Shown piece after piece: positions 17,520 to 21,344 of a stretch of DNA of 64,000 nucleotides. The DNA comes from Ruminococcus sp. Its GTDB lineage: Bacteria > Bacillota > Clostridia > Oscillospirales > Ruminococcaceae. The translations under genes and the position numbers were made by a program. How positions within the stretch are numbered: the first letter of the stretch is position 1; every line of letters starts with the position of its first letter. The DNA is taken from the NCBI GenBank assembly GCA_017437285.1, contig JAFSBM010000134.1, positions 40,133 to 104,132 on the forward strand. The letters run 5' to 3'. The notes beneath the pieces were generated by a model. That model saw nothing but the letters and a program-made list of their open reading frames with translations, did not search any database and was not told the origin of the DNA.

Positions 17520-20075
17520 CTAACGGTTTATCATATCACGTATTTCAGAATTTGCGTCCTCTATTCGTTTTTTCAGTTCTCGTGCAGTCATACGCATTGC
17601 ACCGCTGCCAAGAATTATAAGCTGCTCAACTCCGTCTGAGGTGGCAACACGAACACGATGTTTTCCCGATAATTCATGTGTTACACGCTCAATATAACTG
17701 TCGGCAGTTTCCGATTCCTTTGTATATACAACATTTACATTAAAATGTCGCTCAACTTCACGGTGCTTGCCCTTGACCTTGTATGCGTCAAAAACGATAA
17801 TTATTTCATATCCGCACCAGCCCTGATAATTGCTGAGAATTTTTATAAGTTCCGCCCTTGCAGCATCAAGATTAGTTTCGGATATTTTTTTCAGTTCGTC
17901 CCACGCAAAAATTATGTTGTAACCGTCCACAAGAAGATAATCGGGACCCTCATAATTGGGCAGTTTGACAGGCTTTGAGTAGTCTTTTTTCACCTTTGCG
18001 GATTTGAAAACATTCCTCGGTTCTTTGTCAATCTTGCCATAAGTCATCTCAAAGATTTCCATAAGTTCTTCCTCGGATGCCGCCTTTGAAGTGCTGTGCC
18101 TGCGGACTTTTACGGGATTTTCAGTTTCTTCCGCTGCCCTTTGAATCATCGAGGGCAAGTGCATATATTCCGCCGCCTCATCCCACTTGATATTCATTCC
18201 TGCACCGTGACTGCAAAATACAGAATCAGCCGTATTTTCAACGTCAGAATCGCAGTTGTAGCCGATTTTCTCAATTATTTCCTCGGCATTATGACACTCT
18301 CTGTAACCGCCGTTTATGCAGGTCAATCTGCCTTTTCCACGGGTATATCCCACAACTTCCGAAATATAGTCATTCATCTCAGCAACAGGGGCAGAACCAC
18401 GTATTACAGCCATTTCCCCTGCTGTTTCGGGAGAACTGAAATCCGCTGACATTCGCTGTAAATCAGCCAACGCCCTGCCTGTATTCTCCATAGGAATTTC
18501 CAGTTCATAATCGTAAAATGGTTCAAGGAGAATATTCTCAACATTACGCAAGCCGTGACGAACGGCACGATATGTCGCCTGTCGGAAATCCCCTCCCTCG
18601 GTATGTTTCAGATGTGCTTTTCCTGCACAAATTGTGATTTTCATATCGGTAATGGGCGAACCTGTGAGAGTTCCGATATGCTCCTTTTCTTCAAGGTGAG
18701 TGAGAATTAATCTCTGCCAGTTAAGGGCTAAATCGTCCTCGCTTACAGCTGTATCAAATACAAGTCCGCTGCCACGGGGCAAGGGTTCAAGTATGAGATG
18801 AACTTCCGCATAATGACGCAAAGGCTCATAATGTCCCATTCCCTCCACGGTTTCCGCAATTGTTTCCTTATAGGCAACTGCTCCGCTGCCGAATGTCACC
18901 TCATAGCCGAATCTGTCAAATATCAGACGGCTTAAAACCTCCAGTTGAACTGCTCCCATAAGCTGAATGTGAATCTGCCGCAGCTGCTCATTCCACACAA
19001 TATGAAGCTGGGGGTCCTCATCTTCAAGGCGACGCATTTCCTTTAAAGCGTCAAATACATTTTTATTTTCAGGGAGAATTATCTGATATGTCATAACAGG
19101 CTCTAAAAATGCCCTCTCGGAATTTGGAATACAGCCTATTCCCTGCCCTGAATAGGTATTTTCAAGACCTGTAACGGTGCAGACTTCTCCTGCATATGCC
19201 GTGTCTGCGGTGCGGAATTTCTCAGCTGAATAAAATCGGAGAGAACTGATTTTCTCGTTGATTTTCTCGCCCTCATTGCTGAGATATTCAAGCTCTGAAC
19301 GGACTTTCAGACTTCCGCCCATAATTTTCATATGAGTAAGGCGGCTGCCCTTGCTGTCGTAGGAAATCTTGTATACTTTTGCTCCGAATTCATCGGAATA
19401 CTCCCCTGCTACAGTGTATTTGTCAAGGGCATCGAGGAATTCAGCAATGCCCTGTTCCTTTAATGCAGAGCCAAAAAAGCAGGGAAAAATTCGCCTTTGT
19501 GAAATTGCTCTTGAAATGCTTTCATCGGAAAGGGTATCGCTTTCGAGAAATTCTTCCATTAATTCCTCGTCCCCTGCCGCCGCATTTTCCGCAAGTTCCT
19601 CAGCATCGGAAAAATCCGCTATATCATTGGATAAACGGCTTCTTATGCTGTTGAGGACGTGAAGTTTATCCGCACCTGTCAAGTCCATTTTGTTTACGAA
19701 AATAAAAACAGGCACTTCATATCTCTGCAAAAGCTTCCACAGAGTTGCAGTATGGCTTTGAACTCCGTCAGTTCCGCTGATAACGAGAATTGCATAGTCA
19801 AGCACCTGCATTGTACGCTCAGTTTCAGCGGAAAAATCCACGTGTCCCGGAGTATCAAGCAGAGTAAAATGAGTGTTGCCGTGGGTAAGTTCTGCCTGAC
19901 TTGCGAAAATTGTAATACCACGGTCACGCTCTATTGAATTTGTATCAAGAAATGAATTGCCCTTATCGACTCTGCCGATATGCTGAATTACCCCTGTTTC
20001 GTGGAGCAAAGCCTCCGCAAGAGTTGTTTTTCCTGAGTCAACGTGGGCGGTTATGCCAAGGATTATATTTTTCAT
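17520..20075 (-). CDS. TetM-like ribosome-associated GTPase fused to a YacP/Rae1-type NYN nuclease domain
   Basis: 851 residues. Residues 1 to about 650 are an EF-G/TetM-like GTPase with G1 AHVDSGKT, switch I RDRGITIF, G3 DTPGHVDF and G4 NKMD, then translation-factor domains II to V. Residues about 713-851 are a YacP/Rae1-type NYN (PIN-like) domain with VDGYN, VFDAYK, ETADSYI and ATSDG; the acidic residues at about 717, 763, 792 and 814 are intact. TetM-type proteins act at the ribosomal A site, and B. subtilis Rae1 cleaves mRNA at the ribosome, so the fusion suggests a GTP-driven factor that cuts mRNA (inference). Tetracycline resistance is not implied. The ATG at 20075 with GAGG seven bases before is chosen over a GTG at 20087. 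Confidence 0.88.
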   Translation of the reverse strand: MKNIILGITAHVDSGKTTLAEALLHETGVIQHIGRVDKGNSFLDTNSIERDRGITIFASQAELTHGNTHFTLLDTPGHVDFSAETERTMQVLDYAILVISGTDGVQSHTATLWKLLQRYEVPVFIFVNKMDLTGADKLHVLNSIRSRLSNDIADFSDAEELAENAAAGDEELMEEFLESDTLSDESISRAISQRRIFPCFFGSALKEQGIAEFLDALDKYTVAGEYSDEFGAKVYKISYDSKGSRLTHMKIMGGSLKVRSELEYLSNEGEKINEKISSLRFYSAEKFRTADTAYAGEVCTVTGLENTYSGQGIGCIPNSERAFLEPVMTYQIILPENKNVFDALKEMRRLEDEDPQLHIVWNEQLRQIHIQLMGAVQLEVLSRLIFDRFGYEVTFGSGAVAYKETIAETVEGMGHYEPLRHYAEVHLILEPLPRGSGLVFDTAVSEDDLALNWQRLILTHLEEKEHIGTLTGSPITDMKITICAGKAHLKHTEGGDFRQATYRAVRHGLRNVENILLEPFYDYELEIPMENTGRALADLQRMSADFSSPETAGEMAVIRGSAPVAEMNDYISEVVGYTRGKGRLTCINGGYRECHNAEEIIEKIGYNCDSDVENTADSVFCSHGAGMNIKWDEAAEYMHLPSMIQRAAEETENPVKVRRHSTSKAASEEELMEIFEMTYGKIDKEPRNVFKSAKVKKDYSKPVKLPNYEGPDYLLVDGYNIIFAWDELKKISETNLDAARAELIKILSNYQGWCGYEIIIVFDAYKVKGKHREVERHFNVNVVYTKESETADSYIERVTHELSGKHRVRVATSDGVEQLIILGSGAMRMTARELKKRIEDANSEIRDMINR

Positions 20076-20140
20076 CGGATACCTCACATATTAAAGAACT
20101 TTTCCTAGAAGTTCTGAATATACTGGATTAGGTGATAAAT

Positions 20141-20806
20141 ATGAGCAGAAAAAGCCGAAAAAGAAGAAAAAATCAGCCGATATGCCGCATATCAGCCATT
20201 TTTATTTCAATTGCAATAGTATCAATTGCAGCTTTTTTATTTGTAAAGCTTGATAATGCTGTCAGACCGTCGGCACAAATGCAGGCGGAAACTCTCTCAA
20301 AGCATACCGCATACGAGATTATAACCGATACTATTTCCCAGTATGCCGTGGAAAACGACTGCTCCTACAGCAAATTTTCAACGGTGGTATATGACGAATA
20401 CGGCAATGTTTCATCCGTTGAGGCACTTGTGGGAAACATAAATCTCATTCAGTCTGAATTGGCAGGGCAGATTAATGAAAATCTCTGCAATTCCGAAAAT
20501 ACAACAGCTGAAATTCCATTGGGAAACATCAGCGGTTTATATCTTTTGGCAGGAAAAGGCCCTGATATAAAGGTGGAAATTTGCCCTGTGGGAACGGCAG
20601 ATGTAAAGCTGAAAAGTACCTTTGATTCCGCAGGCATAAATCAGTCACGACATAGAATTTCTGCGGAAATACAGGCAGAAATGACAGCCTCATTCCCCTT
20701 GTACAGCTTTAATACAAAGGTTAATTTTGAATATCTCATTGCGGAAACAATCATCGTTGGCGATGTTCCCGAATATTCCGCAAGAGCATGGGCTGAAATT
20801 ACCTGA
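20141..20806 (+). CDS. yunB: sporulation protein YunB
   Basis: 221 residues with a basic N-terminus and one membrane span (AIFISIAIVSIAAFLFV), then the YunB domain: AEIPLGNISGLYLLAGKGP, IKVEICPVGTADVKLKSTF, SAGINQSRHRISAEI and AETIIVGDVPEYSA. In Bacillus, yunB is needed for normal spore formation and is expressed in the mother cell. Its presence suggests the strain, or a recent ancestor, sporulates. AGGTGA lies five bases before the ATG at 20141. It is divergent from the GTPase-NYN gene, 65 bases apart. Confidence 0.9.
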   Translation: MSRKSRKRRKNQPICRISAIFISIAIVSIAAFLFVKLDNAVRPSAQMQAETLSKHTAYEIITDTISQYAVENDCSYSKFSTVVYDEYGNVSSVEALVGNINLIQSELAGQINENLCNSENTTAEIPLGNISGLYLLAGKGPDIKVEICPVGTADVKLKSTFDSAGINQSRHRISAEIQAEMTASFPLYSFNTKVNFEYLIAETIIVGDVPEYSARAWAEIT

Positions 20807-20807
20807 A

Positions 20808-21344
20808 TTATCTTCTGCGGAATTTCGGCATAAGACGCTTTATGTACAATACATATAATGCTCCGAGGTTGAAATCGTACAGCACATAAATAATATTTGC
20901 AAGAACGAGAAGAATTAATCCGCCGTATTTTCCTAAATCATTCATATCCGTAAGCATCTGATCCAAGCCGAATACAAAGACAGTTACCATAAAGAATGAA
21001 ATCAGACATATATTATAAATCGCCAGCTTTATGACATACCGCAACGGCTTGAATTTGAAATTTTCGAGATACATCCGCACCATCGGATAGTGGCCGAACA
21101 GCATTACAAATACAAGTGCCGCTTCCTTATCCGCAGTTATGAGCATTGACAGAATACTGACAGAAGTGTAGGTTAGCCATGCCCACCCCATACTTACTTC
21201 CTCTGCAATTATCATTAGAAATATGCCTGCAACCATTGGAAGTATAAGGTAAAAAAAGGGCATTATTCCCGAAAGAAACATACATAGCAGACACAGTGCA
21301 GATACGATTCCTCCAAGGGCAACCTTGTAGCTTATGTCCTTCAT
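20808..21344 (-). CDS. multi-pass membrane protein, possibly ECF S-like or DUF2232-like
   Basis: 178 residues with about five spans, starting MKDISYKVALGGIVSALCLL, a pattern shared by ECF S components and by the spore-associated YybS/DUF2232 group. The substrate is unknown. Its ATG overlaps the stop of the SDR gene by four bases, so it closes the long alaS operon. It converges on yunB, and the two stop codons are almost adjacent. Confidence 0.7.
   Translation of the reverse strand: MKDISYKVALGGIVSALCLLCMFLSGIMPFFYLILPMVAGIFLMIIAEEVSMGWAWLTYTSVSILSMLITADKEAALVFVMLFGHYPMVRMYLENFKFKPLRYVIKLAIYNICLISFFMVTVFVFGLDQMLTDMNDLGKYGGLILLVLANIIYVLYDFNLGALYVLYIKRLMPKFRRR

Follow-up and report, generated by a model that had tools for sequence, protein, structure and literature searches.

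A Rae1-type nuclease fused to an EF-G/Tet-branch GTPase probably stands in for separate Rae1 in many Clostridia

In this work, we characterized a Ruminococcus gene in which an EF-G-type translational GTPase and a Rae1-type NYN nuclease share a single reading frame. The gene lies in a stretch of 64,000 nucleotides, referred to here as the window. Our preferred explanation is that the protein is a Rae1 that has moved from its usual locus, is joined to a ribosome-binding GTPase and cuts mRNA on paused ribosomes, and we give this reading a probability of roughly 0.55. The fused nuclease is probably the Rae1 of its genome, as suggested by a distribution complementary to that of separate Rae1 and by the empty rae1 slot of some genomes. 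The gene is read on the minus strand, a point left unstated in the earlier note, which had reported one frame uniting the two parts; that frame was confirmed at 851 residues from an ATG at 20075 to a stop codon at 17520-17522. The ATG is preceded by GAGG at 6 bases, and a GTG at 20087 is a second in-frame start candidate. The gene sits between an oadA-type carboxylase gene downstream and a divergent yunB frame, from which its ATG is separated by 56 bases; no functional link between the fusion and yunB is shown. The features are as follows.

17520..20075, minus strand: GTPase-NYN fusion gene, 851 aa plus stop
18288..20075, minus strand: EF-G-type translational GTPase body, domains G, II, III, IV and V (residues 1-596)
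18579..18623, minus strand: domain IV tip loop (residues 485-499) with H488, K490, H491, T492 and GGDFR
18156..18287, minus strand: conserved tail after domain V (residues 597-640) with conserved C621, W631 and H639
17943..18155, minus strand: linker (residues 641-711)
17523..17942, minus strand: NYN_YacP (Rae1-type) nuclease domain (residues 712-851) with D717, D763, D792 and D814
20132..20806, plus strand: YunB, sporulation protein, divergent neighbour

The window also encodes, at 20811-21344 on the minus strand, a 178-aa protein that looks membrane-like by eye and has no Pfam match at 1e-5.

A Pfam profile search of the 851-aa product recovered GTP_EFTU at residues 3-221 (175.5 bits vs. a cut-off of 26.5), EF-G_D2 at 231-308 (24.8 bits, under the cut-off of 27), EFG_III at 325-396 (27 bits, equal to the cut-off), EFG_IV at 398-510 (61.6 bits) and EFG_C at 516-596 (59.6 bits), followed by NYN_YacP (PF05991) at 714-849 with 169.5 bits vs. 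a cut-off of 24.6 (E 8.2e-50). The GTPase motifs and the EF-G order of domains place the body in the EF-G/Tet superfamily, with EF-G_D2 under its own cut-off. For the NYN part, the match to B. subtilis YacP (5mq8/5mq9) has an E of about 2.7e-29. Thus, the reading of the protein as an EF-G/TetM-like GTPase with a C-terminal NYN domain agrees with the profile search, and the NYN assignment holds at the level of sequence. The four acidic residues fall exactly where the earlier note had put them, and D717, D763, D792 and D814 are invariant in 115/115 distinct fused frames, as is E796. The G motifs, which had been called intact, were checked at four residues that proved invariant or nearly so among the fused frames reaching each position: D13 in 109/109 (6 frames fall short of it), K129 in 111/111, N128 in 108/111 and H78 in 109/110. 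Judged by these residues, both active sites of the fusion are intact.

Between the two parts lies a conserved tail, with C594 conserved just ahead of it, and then the linker. On sequence comparison the tail is the fusion junction, being common to the nuclease-less sister GTPases described below, whose ends fall near there. Two tail-region cysteines (C594 and C621, 115/115) and a histidine (H639, 111/115) could form a putative metal site. The linker is predicted to be disordered, its stretches 652-668 and 680-704 having pLDDT values under 50 in the model, and the region corresponding to residues 646-711 of the window protein varies from 56 to 122 residues across 115 fusions, with a median of 71. 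The GTPase body is predicted to resemble ribosome-bound EF-G, with a fold that also matches TetM, and in structure searches it resembled factors solved on 70S ribosomes. Since the lists from whole-model searches with two models were filled by GTPase-body matches, the NYN fold is assigned from sequence comparison and not from structure. A fold search of a viral library gave general GTPases on top.

The fusion is not peculiar to this contig. Among the 80 best matches on named contigs, a set biased to close kin rather than a census, 79 are single-frame fusions; the 80 comprise 27 Oscillospiraceae, 25 Lachnospiraceae, 7 members of other families and 21 that lack a family name. Carriers include Ruminococcus flavefaciens FD-1, Intestinimonas butyriciproducens An565, Anaerovorax odorimutans DSM 5092 and Fusibacter sp. 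3D3. The sole split relative, L108 (21-2423), has a stop that parts the GTPase frame from an NYN frame beginning about 20 bases past it, at a Met in the tail, by either genuine fission or a sequencing error. This one relative is what favors a frameshift, an assembly error or a dead nuclease domain as the explanation. Against it stand the 79/80 single frames, several of them from named isolates, for which neither a frameshift nor a misassembly can account, and the four acids kept in all 115 frames; we therefore consider the artefact and the dead nuclease refuted for the family, and their residual probability negligible. Two of the outcomes that would have undone the original observation, two genes joined in error and absence of the fusion from related genomes, are thereby contradicted.

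Evidence concerning function comes from the distribution of the fusion relative to that of separate Rae1. We searched 341 genomes, sampled evenly from the class, with PF05991 at E 0.001 or better, which gave 218 positive genomes; 73 of these received a second look, after which the matches split into two size classes. An open frame of at least 500 aa at the match was labelled a fusion and one of at most 230 aa a separate Rae1; six frames with lengths of 313-481 aa, plus a partial match (G248), were placed in neither class. On these definitions, the fusion is present in 116 of the 341 genomes and separate Rae1 in 96, with only one genome (G330) having both and 130 counted as neither. The two forms are thus nearly exclusive (Fisher p 5e-20, for genomes that are not independent and with kinship uncorrected). 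A GTPase match was also found for 113 of the 116 fusion genomes, the exceptions at the threshold of 1e-190 being G232, G310 and G320. In G224, NYN (190 aa) and GTPase (760 aa) occupy frames on different contigs, and the NYN was counted as separate. Outside the class, 141 readable PF05991 matches of a phylum sample comprised 12 fusions, 125 separate forms and 4 intermediates. The genome of the window itself has PF05991 matches at the fusion gene only. Because 130/341 genomes count as having neither form, the function is dispensable in the class.

Gene order points in the same direction. In 20 separate-NYN loci, hand-picked for spread rather than drawn at random, the nuclease gene adjoins rlmB or sigH in 19 and both in 14. 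We take rlmB, by its name, to be an rRNA methylase gene; mrnC also lies near separate rae1. The fusion gene of the window lies outside the rlmB-rae1-sigH order, which is typical of Rae1 rather than defining for it. When 16 fusion genomes, likewise chosen for spread and not at random, were searched with a SigH protein at 1e-25, 13 gave a match and three, including the genome of the window, did not. In 5/16 (G155, G021, G112, G170 and G337), rlmB lies directly beside sigH and the rae1 slot is empty, with no frame of at least 60 aa between the two genes, and none of these five has a PF05991 match besides the fusion. In the 8 other SigH-positive genomes rlmB was not found beside sigH, so that the state of the slot is unreadable there. 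Comparisons within families are consistent with relocation: in one family (f25), the slot is occupied in a genome lacking the fusion (G109) and empty in one possessing it (G155), and in another (f57) the slot is occupied in a genome that also has the fusion (G330) and empty in a second fusion genome (G112). G330 may show an intermediate state. The connection to Rae1 and the phylogenetic spread, both raised in the earlier note, are thereby sharpened to a complementary distribution covering 116/341 genomes, with empty slots and a lone PF05991 match in the genome of the window.

The origin of the fusion was approached through trees of its two halves. In a GTPase tree of 74 rows, all 48 fused rows fall in one clade (SH-aLRT 100, by a quick method without bootstrapping). 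The 19 nuclease-less sisters lie outside this clade, and four Tet-like proteins (L004 and L147 to L149) lie further out still; of the three among these four that were scanned, L004 scores above a Tet cut-off, and L147 and L149 score below. A profile of the fusion GTPase gave 778-818 bits with the nuclease-less sisters, 1112-1145 with three fusions, and 370 and 411 with the Tet-like L148 and L147. The sisters are about 630-690 aa long and end near the start of the fusion's linker, and those fetched have the same domain IV tip and tail as the fusion; they differ from it in having no nuclease. In the class sample, a GTPase match was unaccompanied by a long NYN frame in 23 genomes, of which 18 were counted as nuclease-less, five (G051, G131, G168, G224 and G328) being excluded for a partial or unclear frame or match. 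Eleven of the 18 have separate Rae1 and 7 have no PF05991 match. The association of the nuclease-less GTPase with separate Rae1 (11/18 vs. 84/207 genomes) is not significant (p 0.13), and in the absence of clear co-occurrence a partnership in trans is unsupported.

The NYN tree has one group (98/93) that holds the fused domains and, among them, two separate NYNs, from G243 and G262; a tree constrained to a fused-only clade is not rejected (p 0.18). Of the two trees, that of the GTPase half supports a single fusion event well, whereas that of the NYN half is no more than compatible with one. Separate NYN genes lie amid the fused ones in this tree at L219 (3995-4507), which still adjoins sigH, and at L216 (3986-4504), which has neither rlmB nor sigH nearby; both are in genomes with a nuclease-less GTPase, and they would represent either the donor type or a secondary split. 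Compared with B. subtilis Rae1/YacP, the fusion has the same nuclease domain and the same four acids; that Rae1 stands alone at about 170 aa and is typically encoded between rlmB and sigH, whereas the fusion is out of that slot and has a shorter C-terminus. The window fusion has 134 residues after the first catalytic Asp vs. 160-165 in 37 separate NYNs, and 41/115 fused nucleases, including that of the window, fall at least 16 residues short of all 37. As speculation, the C-terminus may be shorter because the GTPase has assumed some of its contacts.

Whether the protein is a tetracycline-resistance factor deserves particular attention, since Atkinson 2015 (PMC4342817) describes, in ten Clostridiales, Tet proteins that bear a YacP-like NYN domain and raises a possible resistance mechanism. 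A ribosomal protection protein whose added RNase domain contributes to resistance would fit that suggestion, the predicted match to the TetM fold, the occurrence of fusions on large extrachromosomal replicons (Monoglobus pectinilyticus and Agathobacter rectalis, the latter annotated as a TetM/TetW/TetO/TetS protein) and the fact that the closest NCBIfam model is tet_protect (NF012153). However, the score with that model is 421.1 bits vs. a cut-off of 775, that with the TetM/W/O/S model (NF033148) is 277.6 vs. 1100, and three other fusions scanned likewise fall under the curated Tet cut-offs. The protein also scores under the EF-G cut-off (TIGR00484, 310 bits vs. 659.4), and two further EF-G-like genes, L002 and L003, so judged by eye, are present in the host. 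These are two of three further EFG_IV proteins of the host genome; the third, a separate 639-aa protein (L004 256-2175, on contig C95 of G000), has 1261.8 bits vs. the TetM/TetW/TetO/TetS cut-off of 1100. Tet proteins are described as placing the tip of domain IV in the A site, overlapping the EF-G site, with Pro509 and Val510 of TetM meeting the drug site (PMC8161019, PMC7456112). In the aligned fusions and sisters these columns, read against a TetM-like reference (L150, P509 and V510), hold Lys and His: K490 is K in 114/115 fusions and Q in one, and H491 is H in 115/115. In a gapless block, H488 lines up with His573, which sits at the tip of domain IV in Thermus EF-G. Loop 1 of the fusions and their tail also differ from those of TetM and TetO. 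In a plasmid collection, 1297 records match, of which three cover at least 80% of the query; a protein annotated there as tetB(P) is just 31.5% identical to the window protein. Carriage by about a third of the class (116/341) and the 56 bases that separate the ATG from the yunB frame also argue against resistance, as does the neighborhood: no operon partner was seen, and none of the neighbor families is found at more than 6 of the 115 fused loci, many of which have short flanks. On the cut-offs, the tip residues, the separate Tet protein of the host and the distribution, we rejected tetracycline resistance as the main role, and we regard the resistance explanation as a whole as distinctly improbable. 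Of the description 'TetM-like', what stands is that the GTPase branch adjoins Tet-like proteins; closeness to TetM in score or at the drug-site tip does not. The plasmid records also include a nuclease-less sister of about 630 aa on Ligilactobacillus salivarius megaplasmids (H3-H35), 47-49% identical to the window protein and in most rows annotated as a TetM/W/O/S resistance protein, possibly a mislabel. A phage collection gave 114 matching records, and the two that cover at least 80% of the query are both unverified 'Bacteriophage sp.' scaffolds from faeces; L243 (MT835514.1) has the fusion with an AddB-type gene and is probably bacterial, and L242 (MT835563.1) has the fusion, endolysin-like repeats and otherwise few matches.

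Two other explanations accept the domains and give them different work. The NYN domain might mature rRNA or tRNA, with the GTPase merely bringing it to ribosomes or assembling subunits. This is the older general proposal for such domains, cited in Atkinson 2015 (PMC4342817), and the location of separate rae1 beside rlmB and near mrnC agrees with it; we nevertheless judge it decidedly unlikely, given that the cited text describes B. subtilis Rae1 as acting on mRNA in the A site (PMC6613710, PMC10100781, PMC12320835) and that the fused body is predicted to resemble factors bound to whole 70S ribosomes. Alternatively, the halves might work apart, the GTPase having a factor role of its own, e.g., in rescue or back-translocation, and the fusion serving to keep Rae1 dosage or folding together. 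The sisters with the same tip and tail in 18/341 genomes speak for this, and since 7 of these genomes have no PF05991 match, the GTPase is useful by itself; the predicted disorder of the linker is in keeping with it as well. Retention of one frame in 79/80 best-match relatives, with both active sites apparently intact, tells against it and makes it rather unlikely.

We therefore return to the tethered Rae1 that cuts mRNA on paused ribosomes. B. subtilis Rae1 is described as an A-site endoribonuclease to which prolonged stalling may give access (PMC6613710, PMC10100781, PMC12320835), and we infer that the fusion binds ribosomes, turns over GTP and cuts mRNA in a rescue role, in the following order of steps. 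Rae1, an endonuclease of Firmicutes whose cleavage of mRNA depends on translation, would have shifted from the rlmB-sigH slot and been fused to the C-terminus of an EF-G/Tet-branch GTPase, probably once, in an ancestor of many Clostridia. The GTPase body would bind paused or stalled ribosomes with an empty A site, where the tip of domain IV would probe the decoding site, and GTP hydrolysis would let the body leave, timing its exit. The NYN domain, on its flexible linker, could then enter the vacated A site or reach the mRNA of a neighboring ribosome, and its cut would allow decay and tmRNA rescue to follow. Because domain IV and free Rae1 are both placed in the A site, a single simultaneous act, as the earlier note had pictured, is sterically doubtful, and a hand-over on one ribosome or cutting on a neighbor is more likely on this reasoning; the linker is estimated to be long enough for either, at about 3.5 angstrom per residue. 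The motor is unneeded for the chemistry, since the cited text describes B. subtilis Rae1 without any such GTPase. Several observations count against the proposal, namely the competition for the A site, the shorter C-termini of 41/115 fused nucleases, the placing of the G243 and G262 NYNs among the fused ones, the restriction of the slot evidence to 5/16 genomes, the 130/341 genomes with neither form and the lack of clear co-occurrence between sisters and separate Rae1. A more ambitious version, in which the protein is a self-delivering, GTP-timed mRNA cutter whose own motor clears or inspects the A site and then hands over to the nuclease, replacing free Rae1 in a large share of Clostridia, is one that we hold only tentatively.

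The architecture itself is that of the group in Atkinson 2015, to which the window gene belongs as far as that text tells (PMC4342817). That work files the group under Tet, whereas we find a wider spread, a role as stand-in for separate Rae1 and a non-Tet tip. We recognized no other report of the fusion in the literature searched, and Condon 2018, on the distribution of Rae1, may already mention it. The present analysis adds a distribution nearly exclusive with that of separate Rae1, an empty rae1 slot in some genomes, one clade of fused GTPases with nuclease-less sisters and a non-Tet tip; priority for the distribution result is not established. The likely mislabelling as Tet proteins of the Agathobacter rectalis fusion and of most L. 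salivarius sisters could inflate resistome counts. A natural fusion of the nuclease to an EF-G-like GTPase, present in 116/341 genomes, offers a direct handle on how Rae1 finds paused ribosomes and on how stalling is coupled to mRNA cutting in bacteria, and GTPase-dead and nuclease-dead mutants of one protein could separate delivery from cutting. If the GTP-timed cutter proves true, the nuclease-less sisters would form a quality-control branch of GTPases beside the Tet proteins, and this would hint that Tet resistance proteins arose beside physiological factors for the handling of stalls.
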